Source: Prochlorococcus sp. AG-402-P16
GTDB taxonomy: Bacteria > Cyanobacteriota > Cyanobacteriia > PCC-6307 > Cyanobiaceae
Direction of reading: 5' to 3'
DNA length: 39,559 nt
Assembly (NCBI GenBank): GCA_003216295.1
Contig: QCJB01000012.1
Location: forward strand, 1 to 39,559
The translations under genes and the position numbers were made by a program. This document shows, piece by piece, positions 2,096 through 13,542 of this stretch (the first letter of the stretch is position 1; each line of letters opens with the position of its first letter). The notes beneath the pieces are model-generated. The model was given only the letters and a program-made list of their open reading frames with translations, was not told where the DNA came from and did not search any database.

Positions 2096-3697
2096 TTATT
2101 CTTCTATTTTTAAATTATTTAATTCTTGGGACACTCTATTAATTACCTCTTGCCAATTGAATATTTCTTTTTGTCTAAATATTCTAATTGATGGATACCA
2201 GAATGTTTTATCACTAATATTCCCCCATCTCCAGTCAGGTAAATCTTTTAAAAGTAACCAAGTTGATTTTCCCAATCCTCCAGATAGATGAGCAACTGAT
2301 GTATCTGATGTGATAATAATATCACAATTTAATATGACTGCTGAAATTTCTAAAAAATCCCAAATAATATTTATATCTTTTTGGCATTTAACAAATTTGT
2401 TTTTGAAAGAACAGTTATTTAATTGTTCTGATCCAAAACCCTTTTGAAGGGATATAAATTTGCAATTATTTACTTCAGCAATTTTTGAGAAAGTTTCAAG
2501 AGGTAACGAGCGCCCCTTTTGTAATCTTTTTTCTGCCAGGGGATTTCCTTGCCAATTAAGTCCAATAATTGGTTTTTTTTCTGTTGATAAAATAGTTTTC
2601 CATTTTTTATAAAGTTCTGTTTTAGTATTTATATATTTTTCTGAAATAATTGGGTTATTTGGGCTTACTTTTAAATATTTAGGAATAGATAATAGTGGAA
2701 TCCATTTACCTTCAGAAACTTTATTCACTTCTTCTTTGTCTAATGGATTTTGATCAATATTTGATTCTTTGATTAACGAATGTAATTTTTTCTGTGCACA
2801 AAAAGAAACATTTATACCTTGAGCTTTTAAATAAGGTATATATCGCATATATTGAATAGTATCGCCTAACCCTTGCTCGCTAATTATTAATAGCTTTTCT
2901 CCCTTTTCTAATTGCTCATTACCAATTCGTCTAATTTTTGGTTTCCCATTCAGGTATGATGGATTTTTCTTTTTAAATCTAAATTCATAATGTTCAAGAC
3001 CTGATTGATAATTACCTTGTATAAGTTCTAAATATGAAAGATTAAAATAAGCATCTGGAAAATTTGGTCGGAGCTCTATTGCTTTATTAATTGAATTTTC
3101 TGCAAGCTTTAGCTTTTTTTGATCTCTTAAAATATTGCCGAGATTATAATGAAATTCTGCTTTATCTTTTTCAAGTTCTATTGACTTACGAATGGATTTT
3201 TCAGCATCTTCAAGTTTTCCAAGATCTTTTAATATGTTTCCTAGATTGTTATGAGCTATTGCATAGTTTGGTTTTAGTTTTATTGCTATATTTAATGAGT
3301 TTTGAGCTTCTTCTAATTTGTTATGATCTTTGAGTATATTGCCCAGACTATTGTGTGCTTGCGCCAAATTAGGATTGATGTCAATAGCTTTTCTTAGGAA
3401 TAATTCTGCTTCATTTATTTTTCCTAATTGTTTTAAAATAATTCCATAATTTAAGAAAACAATACTTTCATTAGAGTTTTCATTAATTAAATATTGATAA
3501 TATTCTGCTGCTTTTTCTAAATTTCCTTTTGAATAATAATCTAATGCAATTTTTATTTTATCGTCTTTATAAATATCCGTATTTTTAGTAGAATTACTTA
3601 AATTTCTGTATATTTCATTTGAAACTAATGGAACAGGAAATGTTTTTGTTGCATATGGATCTTCTTGTTCATTATTCTTATTCCTAGGACTTTCCAT
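2096..3697 (-). CDS. TPR-glycosyltransferase (GT-B, heptosyltransferase/OGT-like)
   Basis: A 533-aa protein. The N-terminus (MESPRNKN...YATKTFPVP) is the same as in the next gene upstream. About six TPR units follow (about residues 45-240; e.g. AHNNLGNILKDLGKLEDAE). The C-terminal domain (about 262-525) is GT-B-like: EKGEKLLIISEQGLGD at its start, PIIGLNWQGN in the middle, and the donor-site-like motif SDTSVAHLSGGLGK followed by LLKDLPDWRWG. This layout matches bacterial TPR glycosyltransferases related to GT9/GT41. It probably transfers a sugar to a protein or surface glycan; donor and acceptor are unknown. Unlike its two paralogues in this window it keeps the VAHL histidine, so it is the best candidate for an active enzyme. 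Its first ~71 bases lie inside the 970-bp repeat shared with the next unit. Confidence 0.8.
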   Translation of the reverse strand: MESPRNKNNEQEDPYATKTFPVPLVSNEIYRNLSNSTKNTDIYKDDKIKIALDYYSKGNLEKAAEYYQYLINENSNESIVFLNYGIILKQLGKINEAELFLRKAIDINPNLAQAHNSLGNILKDHNKLEEAQNSLNIAIKLKPNYAIAHNNLGNILKDLGKLEDAEKSIRKSIELEKDKAEFHYNLGNILRDQKKLKLAENSINKAIELRPNFPDAYFNLSYLELIQGNYQSGLEHYEFRFKKKNPSYLNGKPKIRRIGNEQLEKGEKLLIISEQGLGDTIQYMRYIPYLKAQGINVSFCAQKKLHSLIKESNIDQNPLDKEEVNKVSEGKWIPLLSIPKYLKVSPNNPIISEKYINTKTELYKKWKTILSTEKKPIIGLNWQGNPLAEKRLQKGRSLPLETFSKIAEVNNCKFISLQKGFGSEQLNNCSFKNKFVKCQKDINIIWDFLEISAVILNCDIIITSDTSVAHLSGGLGKSTWLLLKDLPDWRWGNISDKTFWYPSIRIFRQKEIFNWQEVINRVSQELNNLKIEE

Positions 3698-4596
3698 TTC
3701 TTTGCTATTAGCAATCTATCTCAACAGAGTATACACATTAATATTATTATTCATCTTGTTTATATTTGTCTCTTATCTCTTTTTGAAGTGCTGTAGATAC
3801 TCTTTCTATAACTTCATCCCAGTTGTGAAGTTCTTTCTGACGAAAGAGTTTCATTGTTGGATACCAGAATGTTCTTTCTCCTTGAAGACCCCAGTACCAA
3901 AAAGGACTATCCCTGAGTAATAACCAAACTTTCTTTCCTATTCCAGCAGCTAGGGGTCCAAGACTGCAGTCGTTTGTAATAATGAGATCGCAATTTTCAA
4001 TGATCGCAGCCGTTTCTGAATAATCCCATATTTCATCAATTTGATCCTGGCAGTTAACAAAATGTTCTTTAAAGCTACATTTTTCCATTTGCTCGGAACC
4101 AAAACCTTTTTGAAATGAAATCAAACTAATATCATTTTTTTCAACAATTTTTGCGAATTTATTTAACGGAATAGATCGACCTAGATAAGTTGATTCCATT
4201 TTTTTACTTCCTTGCCAATTAATACCAATAATTGGTCTTTTTTCTTTACAGAGAATATTCCTCCATTTTTCTTTAAGTATTTCTGTTGATGATATATATG
4301 GAGTATCGATGGGTGGATTTTGAGGACTGATGGATAAATACTTAAGTAGAGATAGTAATGGTATCCATTGTCCTTCTTTTACCAGATTTGATTGCTCTGG
4401 AGAAAGAGGATGGGAATGAATCCCAGAGTCTTTAATTAAGCTATGTAATTTTTCAGGGGCACAAAAGGAGATGTTTAATCCTTGATTTCGTAGAGGTATT
4501 AAATATCGCATATGCATAATTACATCACCTGGCGCTTGTTCACTAACGACTAAAATTGATTCTCCTTTTTCTAATTTTTGATTATCAACTCTTTTA
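3627..4596. repeat. Copy A of 970-bp near-perfect direct repeat
   Basis: Bases 3627-4596 match 5191-6160 (offset 1564) with one difference, G4531 versus A6095. The copy spans the 5' end of the 533-aa gene, the 49-bp spacer, and the last ~850 bases of the 504-aa gene. Both boundaries are sharp: sequence on either side is unrelated or only distantly similar. This indicates recent duplication or gene conversion. Reading line by line I saw no other mismatch. Confidence 0.95.
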
Positions 4597-5261
4597 TTTT
4601 TAGACTGAGTAAATATATCTGTAGGTTCCGTTGTTTTATCTCTAAATTCATAATGCTTAAGTCCAGATTCATAGTTTCCATTTAGTAGCTCTATAAGTGA
4701 GAGGTTGAAATAAAAATCTGCGAAATCAGGTTTCAATTTAATTGCTTTGCGAGTATATAATTCTGCTTCTTTTAATTTGCCAAGATCTCTTAATATGTGC
4801 CCCAGATTAGAATACGCATATGGGAAATTAGGTTTCAATTCGATTGCTTTACGAGTGTATAAATCTGCTTCTTTTAAGTTGCCAAGATCTCTCAATATAA
4901 TACCTAGATTGGAATAAGCCTCTGCAAAATTTGGCTTCAATTCAATAACTTTGCGAGTGTATAATTCTGATTCTTTTAAGTTGCCAAGATTTTGTAAAAT
5001 TGCTGCATAATTTGAAAAAAGCCTATAGTCTTCTGAACCTTGATCAATGTAATATCGATAATAATTTGCTGCTTTCTTAATATTTCCTTGTGAATGCAAC
5101 TTTAATCCTTGATTAATTATTTGATCTTTAGAAGAATTAGAAGGAATATTAGTATTAACAATAATATTTTCTTTAATTTTTTCTATTAAAAATGGAACAG
5201 GAAATGTTTTTGTTGCATATGGATCTTCTTGTTCATTATTCTTATTCCTAGGACTTTCCAT
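3747..5261 (-). CDS. TPR-glycosyltransferase, GT domain duplicated from neighbour
   Basis: A 504-aa protein with the shared leader (MESPRNKN...TFPVP), about five TPRs (about residues 48-200, very regular: LRDLGNLKEAELYTRKAIEL) and a GT-B domain (about 222-500). Its last ~283 residues equal those of the 745-aa protein upstream except residue 244, which is Pro here (SEQAPGD) and Leu there (SEQALGD). The donor-site motif reads NDCSLGPLAAGIGKK and lacks the His seen in the paralogue's SDTSVAHL, so activity is uncertain. The spacers to the next genes are 49 bp on both sides and identical, since they fall in the repeat. It is probably transcribed with the genes around it. It may be a duplicate in the process of diverging or decaying. 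Confidence 0.8.
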   Translation of the reverse strand: MESPRNKNNEQEDPYATKTFPVPFLIEKIKENIIVNTNIPSNSSKDQIINQGLKLHSQGNIKKAANYYRYYIDQGSEDYRLFSNYAAILQNLGNLKESELYTRKVIELKPNFAEAYSNLGIILRDLGNLKEADLYTRKAIELKPNFPYAYSNLGHILRDLGKLKEAELYTRKAIKLKPDFADFYFNLSLIELLNGNYESGLKHYEFRDKTTEPTDIFTQSKNKRVDNQKLEKGESILVVSEQAPGDVIMHMRYLIPLRNQGLNISFCAPEKLHSLIKDSGIHSHPLSPEQSNLVKEGQWIPLLSLLKYLSISPQNPPIDTPYISSTEILKEKWRNILCKEKRPIIGINWQGSKKMESTYLGRSIPLNKFAKIVEKNDISLISFQKGFGSEQMEKCSFKEHFVNCQDQIDEIWDYSETAAIIENCDLIITNDCSLGPLAAGIGKKVWLLLRDSPFWYWGLQGERTFWYPTMKLFRQKELHNWDEVIERVSTALQKEIRDKYKQDE

Positions 5262-6160
5262 TTCTTTGCTATTAGCAATCTATCTCAACAGAGTATACAC
5301 ATTAATATTATTATTCATCTTGTTTATATTTGTCTCTTATCTCTTTTTGAAGTGCTGTAGATACTCTTTCTATAACTTCATCCCAGTTGTGAAGTTCTTT
5401 CTGACGAAAGAGTTTCATTGTTGGATACCAGAATGTTCTTTCTCCTTGAAGACCCCAGTACCAAAAAGGACTATCCCTGAGTAATAACCAAACTTTCTTT
5501 CCTATTCCAGCAGCTAGGGGTCCAAGACTGCAGTCGTTTGTAATAATGAGATCGCAATTTTCAATGATCGCAGCCGTTTCTGAATAATCCCATATTTCAT
5601 CAATTTGATCCTGGCAGTTAACAAAATGTTCTTTAAAGCTACATTTTTCCATTTGCTCGGAACCAAAACCTTTTTGAAATGAAATCAAACTAATATCATT
5701 TTTTTCAACAATTTTTGCGAATTTATTTAACGGAATAGATCGACCTAGATAAGTTGATTCCATTTTTTTACTTCCTTGCCAATTAATACCAATAATTGGT
5801 CTTTTTTCTTTACAGAGAATATTCCTCCATTTTTCTTTAAGTATTTCTGTTGATGATATATATGGAGTATCGATGGGTGGATTTTGAGGACTGATGGATA
5901 AATACTTAAGTAGAGATAGTAATGGTATCCATTGTCCTTCTTTTACCAGATTTGATTGCTCTGGAGAAAGAGGATGGGAATGAATCCCAGAGTCTTTAAT
6001 TAAGCTATGTAATTTTTCAGGGGCACAAAAGGAGATGTTTAATCCTTGATTTCGTAGAGGTATTAAATATCGCATATGCATAATTACATCACCTAGCGCT
6101 TGTTCACTAACGACTAAAATTGATTCTCCTTTTTCTAATTTTTGATTATCAACTCTTTTA
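5191..6160. repeat. Copy B of 970-bp near-perfect direct repeat
   Basis: Partner of 3627-4596. It covers the first ~71 bases of the 504-aa gene, the 49-bp spacer and the 3' ~850 bases of the 745-aa gene. The unique stretch between the copies (4597-5190, 594 bp) encodes the N-terminal and TPR part of the 504-aa protein. Crossing over between the copies would remove exactly 1564 bp and leave all reading frames intact. Confidence 0.95.
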
Positions 6161-7548
6161 ATTATTGGATTGGCTCCCCAGAACAGGGATTCAGGTCCTT
6201 TAGCTTGAACTCGAAGTTCATAGTGTTCAAGTCCTGCCTTATAATCACCTTTAAGAAGGTTGACTAGAGAAAGATTGAAAAGAGCTAATTGATTATCAGG
6301 TTCTAATGAAATAGATTTAAGAGTACTCAGTTCTGATTCTTGTAATTGACCGAGATTTTTCAATGTTACTCCCAAATTTAAATGAGCACTTGCGGAATCA
6401 GGTTGAAGTTGAATTGCTTTCCTGATTGATATTTCTGCTTCTTGTGTTTGTCCTAGACTATTTAATACGTTTCCTAGATTATTATAAGCTTCAGCTAAAT
6501 CAGGCTTGATTTTAATAGCTTGTCGAGCATTTATTTCTGCCTCTTGTATTTGCCCCAATTCATGTAATATGGATGAAAGGTTAGAATAAGCTTCGGCAAG
6601 CTTGGGGTTGATTTGAATTGCTTTTTTAGTTGATATTTCTGCTTGTTTAATTTCTTTTTTAAGTTTTAATATTGTTCCTAAATTTGAATGAGCTTTTGCA
6701 TTATTAGGATTCAATTCAATAGCCTTTTTAGTATATAATTCAGCTTCTTTTAATTTACCTAGATCTTTTAATACTGTTCCTAGGCTTAAATATGCTTGTG
6801 CATAATTAGGATCTAGTTCAATAGCTTTACGGGCATATAATTCAGCTTCTTTTAATTCACCTTTTGAAAGTAATATGATTGCTAGATTAAGATGGGATTT
6901 TGCGTAACTGGAATTAAGTTCAACAGCTTTACGAGCATACAATTCTGCCTCGTCTATTTTCTTCAGAAGTTTTAATATATTTACTAAATTAATATATGCA
7001 GCAATATAATCAGGCTTTATTTCAATAGCTTTACGGGCATATAATTCAGCTTCTTTTAATTCACCTTTTGAAAGTAATATGATTGCTAGAGTAAGATGGG
7101 ATTTTGGGTAACTTGAATTAAGTTCAATAGCTTTACGAATAGATGATTCAGATTCTTTTAATTTACCTAGATATTTCAATATCCATCCTAGGCTTAGATA
7201 TGCTTGTTCATTGCTAGGATTCAGCTCAATAGCTTTTCTAATTGATAACTCTGCTTTATTTAATTCTTTCAGATCTATTAAAATTAAACCTAGATTAAAA
7301 TATGCTTTATCAAAATTTGGTTTTAATTTAATAGCTTGGTGAATTATTTTTTCTGCTTCTTTCAATCTTCCAATACTCTTTAAAAAGATTCCATAATTAC
7401 ATAATATTATTGGATCATTGTTACCTTTCTTAATTAAATAAAGGTAACACTTTTCTGCTTCTGAAGTTTTTCCTTGTAATTGAAAGTTGATTGCATTTTT
7501 AATTAATTCGTTTTTAGAAAGTGTAGAATAAGTATCAATGTTATCCAT
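5311..7548 (-). CDS. Large TPR-glycosyltransferase (about 13 TPRs)
   Basis: A 745-aa protein with about thirteen TPR units from about residue 10 to 450, then a GT-B domain (about 463-740) virtually identical to that of the 504-aa protein. Its N-terminus (MDNIDTYSTLSKNELIK) lacks the TFPVP leader found in the next two genes. Two TPRs are an internal 204-bp duplication (AIILLSKGELKEAELYARKA occurs twice, 68 residues apart). The GT domain has SEQALGD, PIIGINWQGS and the His-less NDCSLGPLAAGIGKK motif. By analogy with O-GlcNAc-transferase-like proteins the TPR superhelix would select an acceptor protein for the GT domain; that role is inferred. It is the 5'-most of three tandem TPR-GT genes on this strand. 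Confidence 0.8.
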   Translation of the reverse strand: MDNIDTYSTLSKNELIKNAINFQLQGKTSEAEKCYLYLIKKGNNDPIILCNYGIFLKSIGRLKEAEKIIHQAIKLKPNFDKAYFNLGLILIDLKELNKAELSIRKAIELNPSNEQAYLSLGWILKYLGKLKESESSIRKAIELNSSYPKSHLTLAIILLSKGELKEAELYARKAIEIKPDYIAAYINLVNILKLLKKIDEAELYARKAVELNSSYAKSHLNLAIILLSKGELKEAELYARKAIELDPNYAQAYLSLGTVLKDLGKLKEAELYTKKAIELNPNNAKAHSNLGTILKLKKEIKQAEISTKKAIQINPKLAEAYSNLSSILHELGQIQEAEINARQAIKIKPDLAEAYNNLGNVLNSLGQTQEAEISIRKAIQLQPDSASAHLNLGVTLKNLGQLQESELSTLKSISLEPDNQLALFNLSLVNLLKGDYKAGLEHYELRVQAKGPESLFWGANPIIKRVDNQKLEKGESILVVSEQALGDVIMHMRYLIPLRNQGLNISFCAPEKLHSLIKDSGIHSHPLSPEQSNLVKEGQWIPLLSLLKYLSISPQNPPIDTPYISSTEILKEKWRNILCKEKRPIIGINWQGSKKMESTYLGRSIPLNKFAKIVEKNDISLISFQKGFGSEQMEKCSFKEHFVNCQDQIDEIWDYSETAAIIENCDLIITNDCSLGPLAAGIGKKVWLLLRDSPFWYWGLQGERTFWYPTMKLFRQKELHNWDEVIERVSTALQKEIRDKYKQDE
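6818..7122. repeat. 204-bp internal duplication of two TPR units
   Basis: About 100 bases beginning near 6818 recur near 7022 at an offset of 204 bp with only a few mismatches (for example GATTAAG versus GAGTAAG). 204 bp is 68 codons, i.e. two 34-residue TPRs, so the frame is kept. This marks recent lengthening of the TPR domain of the 745-aa protein. Confidence 0.85.
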
Positions 7549-13233: not shown

Positions 13234-13542
13234 GTGGCAGTAGTTAACAAACGTCAAGCAGATAAGAAGGCTTTAGCAGAGAAGAAAGCTCAAGCAGATA
13301 AGAAGGCTTTAGCAGAGAAGAAAGCTCAAGCAGAGAAGAAGGCTTTAGCAGAGAAGAAAGCTCAACCAGAGAAGAAAGTCATTGCTATGCCTAAATTGGA
13401 TTCAAAGCAAAAGCGCGACTCTAGAACTGAATTGTTAACAGTTTCAGTTTCTTTAAATACTGGCAAGATTGTAGGAATAGTTGCCGTTGGAATTATTGCT
13501 TCTGCGTTTCTTGTCTCTGCAATGGTATTTATCGCTGGGTAA
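13234..13542 (+). CDS. Lys/Ala-rich repeat protein with C-terminal membrane span
   Basis: A 102-aa protein starting at GTG. Residues ~8-50 are a tandem of six-residue units (ADKKAL, AEKKAQ) encoded by a 36-bp minisatellite; they would form a strongly basic helix. A short linker follows, then LLTVSVSLNT and a hydrophobic span (about 78-100, IVGIVAVGIIASAFLVSAMV). The tail strongly resembles the 44-aa protein encoded at 14301-14435, so the two share a small membrane module. The basic repeat would be cytoplasmic under the positive-inside rule and could bind nucleic acid or acidic surfaces; no function is known. A GTG start preceded by AGGG about 13 bases away is weak, but no better start is seen. 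Confidence 0.65.
   Translation: MAVVNKRQADKKALAEKKAQADKKALAEKKAQAEKKALAEKKAQPEKKVIAMPKLDSKQKRDSRTELLTVSVSLNTGKIVGIVAVGIIASAFLVSAMVFIAG
13255..13380 (+). repeat. 36-bp minisatellite in coding sequence
   Basis: Three consecutive 36-bp units start at 13255, 13291 and 13327, each coding for two KKA-type hexapeptides, followed by a partial fourth unit from 13363. Units 1 and 2 are identical; unit 3 differs by a base (GATAAG to GAGAAG). Each unit is itself a doubled 18-bp element. The length is a multiple of three, so copy-number changes would lengthen or shorten the protein without a frameshift. Confidence 0.9.

Follow-up and report, generated by a model that had tools for sequence, protein, structure and literature searches.

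A near-identical 970-bp repeat between neighboring TPR-enzyme genes of Prochlorococcus, best read as a footprint of recent recombination in a modular gene family

The stretch of DNA analyzed here (the window) is an entire contig of 39,559 nucleotides, QCJB01000012.1, from the 1.59-Mb draft genome of Prochlorococcus sp. AG-402-P16 (51 contigs, 83% complete). It carries five consecutive tetratricopeptide repeat (TPR) genes on the minus strand, and three of these, here called A, B, and C, encode a TPR array followed by a predicted glycosyltransferase (GT) domain. A 970-bp block that differs at only one position is found at both the A-B and the B-C junctions. This repeat is best read as a recent ectopic recombination footprint in a modular TPR-enzyme family that has expanded in a low-GC Prochlorococcus lineage, and we think it probable that recombination between neighboring paralogs was its source. 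Taken alone, the window repeat is a modest event; the interesting part is that modules have been exchanged between members of this family in several relatives.

The two copies lie at 3627 to 4596 and 5191 to 6160, offset by 1,564 bp, with a single mismatch (4531 G versus 6095 A) and a longest exact run of 904 bp, as an earlier sequence-only reading of the window had reported. Its account of the anatomy likewise agrees with the gene coordinates. Gene A (7548 to 5311, minus strand, 745 amino acids) has a TPR array and a GT domain and does not fit the profile of the N-terminal leader found in many of these genes; gene B (5261 to 3747, minus strand, 504 amino acids) consists of a leader (KTFPVPF), a TPR part at 4597 to 5190 that is unlike that of A or C, and a GT domain; and gene C (3697 to 2096, minus strand, 533 amino acids) has the same first 23 codons as B, followed by its own TPR part and a different GT. 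Read on the minus strand, copy 1 comprises the 3′ 850 bp of gene B (the GT domain), a 49-bp spacer (3698 to 3746), and the first 71 bp of gene C, that is, 23 codons plus 2 nucleotides. Copy 2 comprises the 3′ 850 bp of gene A (the GT domain), an identical 49-bp spacer (5262 to 5310), and the first 71 bp of gene B. Identity falls abruptly at 3626 and 4597. The flanks had been called dissimilar, and the drop is indeed sharp, with the 150-bp flanks aligning at 64% and 59%, but they are still homologous TPR DNA of lower identity, which is why gapped blastn extends past the repeat ends (82.7% over 1,857 bp). The only other exact direct repeats of at least 25 bp in the window are a TPR-internal pair at 6817/7021 and a short tandem near 13254, and the seven other matches to the block in the same genome are 64 to 70% identical. 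The TPR-internal pair is a 70-bp exact repeat within gene A (6817 to 6886 and 7021 to 7090), its copies 204 bp, or two TPR units, apart.

The sole difference between the copies gives EQAPGD in B and EQALGD in A. Among the 10 listed relatives with the A/B type of GT, this site holds P in eight, A in one, S in one, and L in none, so it is probably A's copy that carries the change and holds the derived residue; on the same count, the leucine of A was rejected as the ancestral state. Simulated removal of 1,564 bp at three points left C unchanged each time and A unchanged at two points, with one residue altered at the third, which bears out the prediction of a clean one-gene deletion with all frames kept. 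The present repeat therefore makes gene B liable to be cleanly lost or amplified. The sequence-only reading had also proposed that TPR parts are exchanged through these two copies. This was not borne out; a crossover between the copies loses or, in reverse, multiplies gene B alone, while A and C are kept and no new TPR-GT pair is made, and TPR exchange thus does not follow from the window repeat alone.

How did the repeat arise? A simple tandem duplication was rejected because the identical 970 bp is shorter than the 1,564-bp spacing and the other 594 bp, in the intervening TPR part, is close to neither neighbor. In 100-bp windows, the best matches of B's own TPR part were 25 to 75% identical to A and 37 to 69% identical to C; the idea that B simply joins the TPR start of C to the TPR end of A was rejected for low identity. 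We lean somewhat toward non-reciprocal copying as having made the window repeat by itself, because one such event suffices, whereas duplication needs a second event to replace the TPR part of B. A tract comprising the GT domain, the spacer, and the leader of the next gene would have been copied from one junction to its neighbor. The two ends of the tract would lie in sequence that the paralogs still have in common, namely, the KTFPVPF leader and the start of the GT domain, both of which are conserved in the family. The agent would be RecA-type recombination, with B's GT as the putative donor and A's as the recipient. In a tree of the 55 GTs that scored at least 150 bits (among 63 full GT matches), A and B are sisters (100/100), and same-genome sister pairs were also found in the genomes labeled G004, G005, G006, and G034 (G labels denote genomes and L labels denote sequence stretches of those genomes). 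Outside the tract, the TPR parts of A and B differ and have other best matches. In a DNA comparison of the 330 bp before the junction with 12 hand-chosen relatives of the A/B GT type, B was nearer in 9 cases and A was nearer in 2, with one tie, and B is therefore the likelier original owner of the shared GT.

Blocks of the same kind recur in relatives. We searched 41 genomes of the genus, that of AG-402-P16 included. The window block was matched in 26 of them, and in genomes other than that of AG-402-P16, matches longer than 50 bp were at most 79% identical; the leader and first TPR of gene B were matched in 39, with 24 matches in the AG-402-P16 genome and up to 44 in one genome of ~1.9 Mb. 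The TPR regions of 22 relatives and of AG-402-P16 (23 genomes), picked for leader, TPR, or GT matches, were then each scanned against themselves with strict +1/−5 scoring. We counted blocks of at least 400 bp with a TPR gene on both sides; tandem blocks within a gene and pairs in which either side lacked a TPR gene (e.g., a 203-bp pair in G011) were dropped beforehand. Twenty-seven blocks, the window's included (400 to 1,916 bp, 97.9 to 100% identical), join different TPR-enzyme genes in 7 of the 23 genomes (G000, G002, G004, G005, G006, G022, and G034), and four of these seven are single contigs. The suggestion that the repeat is linked to recombination among TPR-GT genes is supported by these blocks. 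Eleven represent a 5′ part (upstream DNA, leader, and TPR), 12 represent a 3′ part (the TPR end plus the enzyme), 2 are end-spacer-start junctions like that in the window, and 2 are internal. Nine are inverted, the partners lie 1.6 to 648 kb apart, and at the edges of 16 identity drops to 80% or less on both sides.

In the fetched regions, the TPR genes that share a block of at least 200 bp with another family gene number 15 of 38 in G004, 15 of 36 in G005, and 15 of 36 in G006. The TPR regions of these three genomes, 163 to 164 kb in each case, hold 15, 11, and 22 non-overlapping blocks, respectively, a few of them outside TPR genes. As controls, ten 20-kb stretches of G005 gave no block of at least 200 bp, and ten 20-kb stretches of G006 gave seven rows, six belonging to a single local tandem array and the seventh being a 392-bp repeat in which no open reading frame (ORF) exceeds 93 amino acids. 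Since the TPR regions were picked by match, this control compares family with background, not random with random. Separately, positions 343 to 1184 of L098, in the G005 island, are a tandem array of 72-bp units outside the listed TPR genes.

What is shuffled can be read from the enzymes that follow the shared parts; GTs without a Pfam match were called by a profile built from B's domain. In G004, a 1,035-bp part made up of upstream DNA, leader, and TPR precedes a GT41 domain in one gene and, at 100% identity, a 2-oxoglutarate (2OG) oxygenase of the 2OG_3 class in the next. The 3′ half of that GT41 gene is 91 to 100% identical to the preceding gene (3′ pieces at 98.5 to 99.6%), making it a mosaic between its two sources, although ~400 bp in its middle is at most 84% identical to both neighbors. 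In G006, 857 bp at 99.8% identity precede a GT in one gene and an FkbM methyltransferase in the other, and 1,008 bp at 100% precede a sulfotransferase in one gene and, in the other, a part that matches no enzyme; in G002, 514 bp at 97.9% precede a 2OG oxygenase (2OG_5) in one gene and a GT in the other. Not every 5′ pair differs in this way, as the pair on L131 and L132 of G002 leads into GT41 on both sides. Exchange of modules, as the sequence-only reading had proposed, is thus seen in relatives, but that reading held the GT domain constant, and the enzyme behind a constant leader-TPR part changes about as often as the TPR part does. The situation in other species is mixed. The nearest parallel to the window is in G034, where the GTs of two adjacent genes are 99.9% identical over 757 bp and the TPR parts are different, whereas two G005 GTs of the A/B type have not been homogenized. 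The range of enzymes is broad. Of 99 leader genes in G004 to G006, 87 C termini remained after ORFs cut at a region edge or of at most 380 amino acids were dropped, and these match GT41 (13), sulfotransferase (13), GT9 (9), 2OG_5 (6), TylF (5), methyltransferases (4), and 2OG_3 (4). On L097, a leader-TPR ORF of 270 amino acids (3578 to 4174) is followed by a separate ORF of 198 amino acids (4175 to 4987) whose end is oxygenase-like by eye, and the pair looks as if the two modules of one gene had been split.

Several observations weigh against this interpretation or narrow it. Eleven of the 27 blocks retain 81 to 96% identity on one side, and some of them may therefore be partly eroded duplications. 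Several of the G006 blocks are not independent, as four GTs share one stretch. The control covers G005 and G006, with no G004 set, and one of the G006 control stretches, L185, itself holds two leader matches. In the 161 kb fetched from the AG-402-P16 genome, the window block is the only one, and 16 of the 23 genomes, G001 and G007 among them, have no block between family genes; many of these were thinly sampled, and draft genomes may collapse repeats. Over the whole GT tree, the nine GTs of the AG-402-P16 genome are not clustered (8 changes; 208 of 500 shuffles were as low), and neither are those of G005 (126 of 500 shuffles), the genome with the two unhomogenized genes. Because the nine GTs as a whole are not clustered, homogenization is local, not family-wide. 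The DNA direction test gave a modest difference (means of 0.731 for B versus 0.693 for A; best values of 0.81 versus 0.71), and a protein test over 42 residues in seven relatives placed B nearer in three and A nearer in four and did not separate the two, because its pattern dropped several relatives with the A/B GT type.

It is a real possibility, to which we give a little under an even chance, that the shuffling is a neutral by-product, a repeat-rich family recombining passively and without any role. This would be compatible with the mechanism favored above. Homology extends throughout the TPR DNA, in-gene TPR expansion is frequent across the leader-TPR-enzyme family, and two block partners are TPR only, without an enzyme match (L097, 4175 to 4987; L148, 7887 to 8864), all of which favor this reading. 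Passive recombination accounts less readily for the preservation of the reading phase at 52 of the 54 block starts and for the upkeep of dozens of leader-TPR genes in a genome of ~1.9 Mb, which would be costly if they were useless, although neither point is proof of selection. Genomes as streamlined as those of Prochlorococcus would be expected to lose redundant genes; even so, there are up to 44 leader-TPR genes per genome in this lineage, many with recently exchanged modules.

More tentatively still, we suggest that the lineage may keep a library of TPR-guided enzymes under one leader and continually re-pair their halves by recombination, selected for changing targets. The enzymes would be of the GT9-like, GT41, sulfotransferase, 2OG oxygenase, and methyltransferase types, the targets might be, e.g., surface or phage-receptor molecules, and recombination would use the leader, the junction of TPR part and enzyme, and the TPR repeats as its anchors. 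The TPR part of these proteins would govern acceptor choice and the C-terminal enzyme would modify what had been picked, such that re-paired halves would give new target-reaction combinations and shuffling could be selected as a diversification device. If the TPR part does select the target and the C-terminal domain the chemistry, then parts that are 98 to 100% identical on different enzymes are natural domain-swap experiments, and such pairs would point to which proteins to compare.

For the window itself, a rather unlikely alternative to copying is unequal crossing-over, a sub-case of recombination between paralogs and hence compatible with the overall interpretation. Here B would be a hybrid, with its 5′ end from C and its 3′ end from A, generated by tandem duplication of a segment running from the end of A through the spacer to the start of C, with its TPR part later replaced from a third paralog. 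The layout is as expected: the 3′ end of B is also found in A, its upstream neighbor, the 5′ end of B is also found in C, its downstream neighbor, and the G004 mosaic gene has the same layout with much longer shared ends. However, two events would be required, plain duplication predicts a match across all 1,564 bp where 594 bp is close to neither A nor C, and the G004 parallel also has its divergent middle.

We regard it as improbable that the repeat or its copy number is wrong through an assembly or amplification artifact of a draft, possibly single-cell, genome. The assembly is fragmented and incomplete, and the relative named by a contig-level genome scan, which returned one locus, is itself a whole-genome-shotgun draft (Prochlorococcus sp. 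AG-315-C08). The 904-bp exact run also exceeds usual short-read k-mers, and the copy number may therefore be a lower bound; short-read assemblies and population surveys of TPR islands may under-count copies in the same way. Against an artifact, an arrangement of repeat, unique part of B, and repeat requires both junctions, both junctions give intact in-frame genes, the copies are told apart by one base, and blocks of this kind are also present in relatives assembled as a single contig.

A dedicated variation system (recombinase cassettes, silent stores with an expression site, or a mobile element) in place of general recombination is very improbable: 4 of the 27 blocks (the window's, L102/L103, L101/L145, and L097/L097) end in or within 4 codons of the KTFxVPF leader, which is suggestive only, and a tRNA-Ser lies beyond the listed TPR genes in three relatives, but the 5′ block ends range from ~350 bp upstream of the gene to codon 27, the inner ends are scattered over TPR codons, the block codes for family genes only, A, B, and C are complete ORFs with no truncated stores, and a Pfam scan of 25 window proteins revealed neither a transposase nor a recombinase, in a locus that runs off the contig end. 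A phage vector found no support, as three IMG/VR loci matched at 32 to 39% identity over part of the TPR region.

The GT label had been given by the sequence-only reading. The proteins of A, B, and C (P0001 to P0003) had no GT match in Pfam at an E value of 0.001, GT41 included, and a PDB sequence search with B's GT domain gave no match up to an E value of 1, so the label needed a structural test. An AlphaFold model of the C-terminal domain, made from an alignment of 57 homologs among the 63 full GT matches, had a pLDDT of 91.6 and a pTM of 0.91. Its best structure match was the GT9 entry 3tov (rank 1; E = 6e-9; TM score, 0.61), and it also matched TibC (4rap; TM score, 0.56 to 0.57; top two chains) and E. 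coli heptosyltransferases I and II, the top matches sharing 10 to 15% sequence identity. The C-terminal domain of the A/B/C type is thus predicted from this model to have a GT-B fold and to be GT9-like, in support of the label. The Glyco_transf_9 profile itself had no match in P0001 to P0003; its 9 matches among the 87 family C termini have a best E value of 1.3e-4. Two GT subtypes can be told apart by motif, NDCS.GPL in A and B and SDTS(I/V)AHL in C and others. In NCBIfam, P0001 and P0003 matched only TPR-type models, below the cut-offs, and the matches of P0002 to PilW (183 bits versus a cut-off of 154) and to a TPR end-of-group model (33 versus 32) were read as TPR cross-matching.

The rest of the window places these genes in context. 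Upstream of A lies a TPR gene with a 2OG-FeII_Oxy_5 domain (9854 to 7776, minus strand), and downstream of C follows a TPR gene (1952 to 666, minus strand) that has a leader-like start and a weak 2OG-Fe(II) oxygenase match (E = 9e-5, below the Pfam cut-off). Beyond it, a 2OG-oxygenase-like ORF (192 to 584) seems by eye to begin farther upstream, with an ATG at 51, and to be interrupted near 108 by an in-frame TGA, and the stretch from 51 to 584 is possibly a broken gene at the contig end. The window has a GC content of 34% and includes psaL, psaA, and psaB; no RNA element or tRNA was found in it at Rfam gathering scores or by ARAGORN.

A beta-lactamase-like gene (15321 to 14422, minus strand) flanks the array, and its counterparts lie ~2 to 5 kb from family genes in five of six single-contig relatives (G002 and G004 to G007, not G003). 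In the stretches fetched from G002, G005, and G007, a tRNA-Ser lies beyond the listed TPR genes. From its surroundings, the TPR locus resembles a variable island whose location is fixed. Inside the islands of five genomes, a stretch of 600 to 700 bp with short ORFs is 97 to 98% identical (L114, 4760 to 5446; L130, 7786 to 8472; L140, 13532 to 14201; L099, 2327 to 3007; L139, 14946 to 15553); the flank-gene protein, by contrast, is 71 to 73% identical between AG-402-P16 and the other four. A Cyano-1 small RNA (sRNA; RF01701) also lies inside TPR arrays (L104, 10675 to 10739; L149, 4957 to 5021; L092, 680 to 744; L155, 7360 to 7424), in G006 within a 403-bp segment that occurs twice at 99.75% identity (L104, 10344 to 10746; L105, 1711 to 2112).

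The leader has the consensus KTFxVPFALxEIKENI, and 217 ORFs in the fetched regions fit its profile, as do B and C. Over 151 sampled family genomes, 20 had a match at 1e-8; six of these 20 belong to the genus (AG-402-P16 included), and of the 25 leader matches from outside it, 20 begin no earlier than profile position 9, which lies beyond the KTFxVPF motif. The KTFxVPF leader thus appears to be largely confined to the genus Prochlorococcus, in a search that is less sensitive to remote leaders because all 31 alignment rows come from the genus.

TPR genes of Prochlorococcus have been noticed before. TPR repeats were the most represented Pfams in low-light strains, where their abundance was attributed to photosystem II assembly or heterotrophy, in passages that do not mention enzyme domains, a leader, or module exchange (PMC11357015), and a second study names TPR proteins as one of the most frequent annotations for gene clusters that are small or unique (PMC7779031). 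Our search of titles and abstract openings on Prochlorococcus TPR genes, paralog recombination, gene conversion, and tycheposons, with subscription papers and preprints outside it, found no account of a leader-TPR-enzyme family or of its shuffling.

Comparison with known systems shows both likenesses and differences. A study of surface proteins, e.g., those of Porphyromonas gingivalis, concerns, by its title, domain rearrangement and allelic exchange (PMC5266723). The exchange of domains between homologous genes is common to both cases, but the proteins there are adhesins and fimbriae, whereas here they are TPR enzymes. The order of a TPR array followed by a GT is that of the GT41 enzymes OGT and SPINDLY (in OGT, it is the TPRs that choose substrates), and 13 of the 87 family C termini do match GT41, yet the GT domains of A, B, and C do not, and their predicted fold is nearest to GT9. 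To GT9 and TibC heptosyltransferases they are alike in their predicted GT-B fold, with 3tov and 4rap as the best matches, but the identity is low, Pfam detects no GT in A, B, or C, and the domain is here fused to TPRs. Ectopic gene conversion, with concerted evolution, among bacterial paralogs is a general process, and the window shares its marks, a near-identical tract with abrupt ends in otherwise diverged paralogs and a homogenized domain beside a variable one. The difference is that here different enzyme classes are joined to one TPR part, that many genes of a single family are involved, and that the host is a marine phototroph with a small genome.

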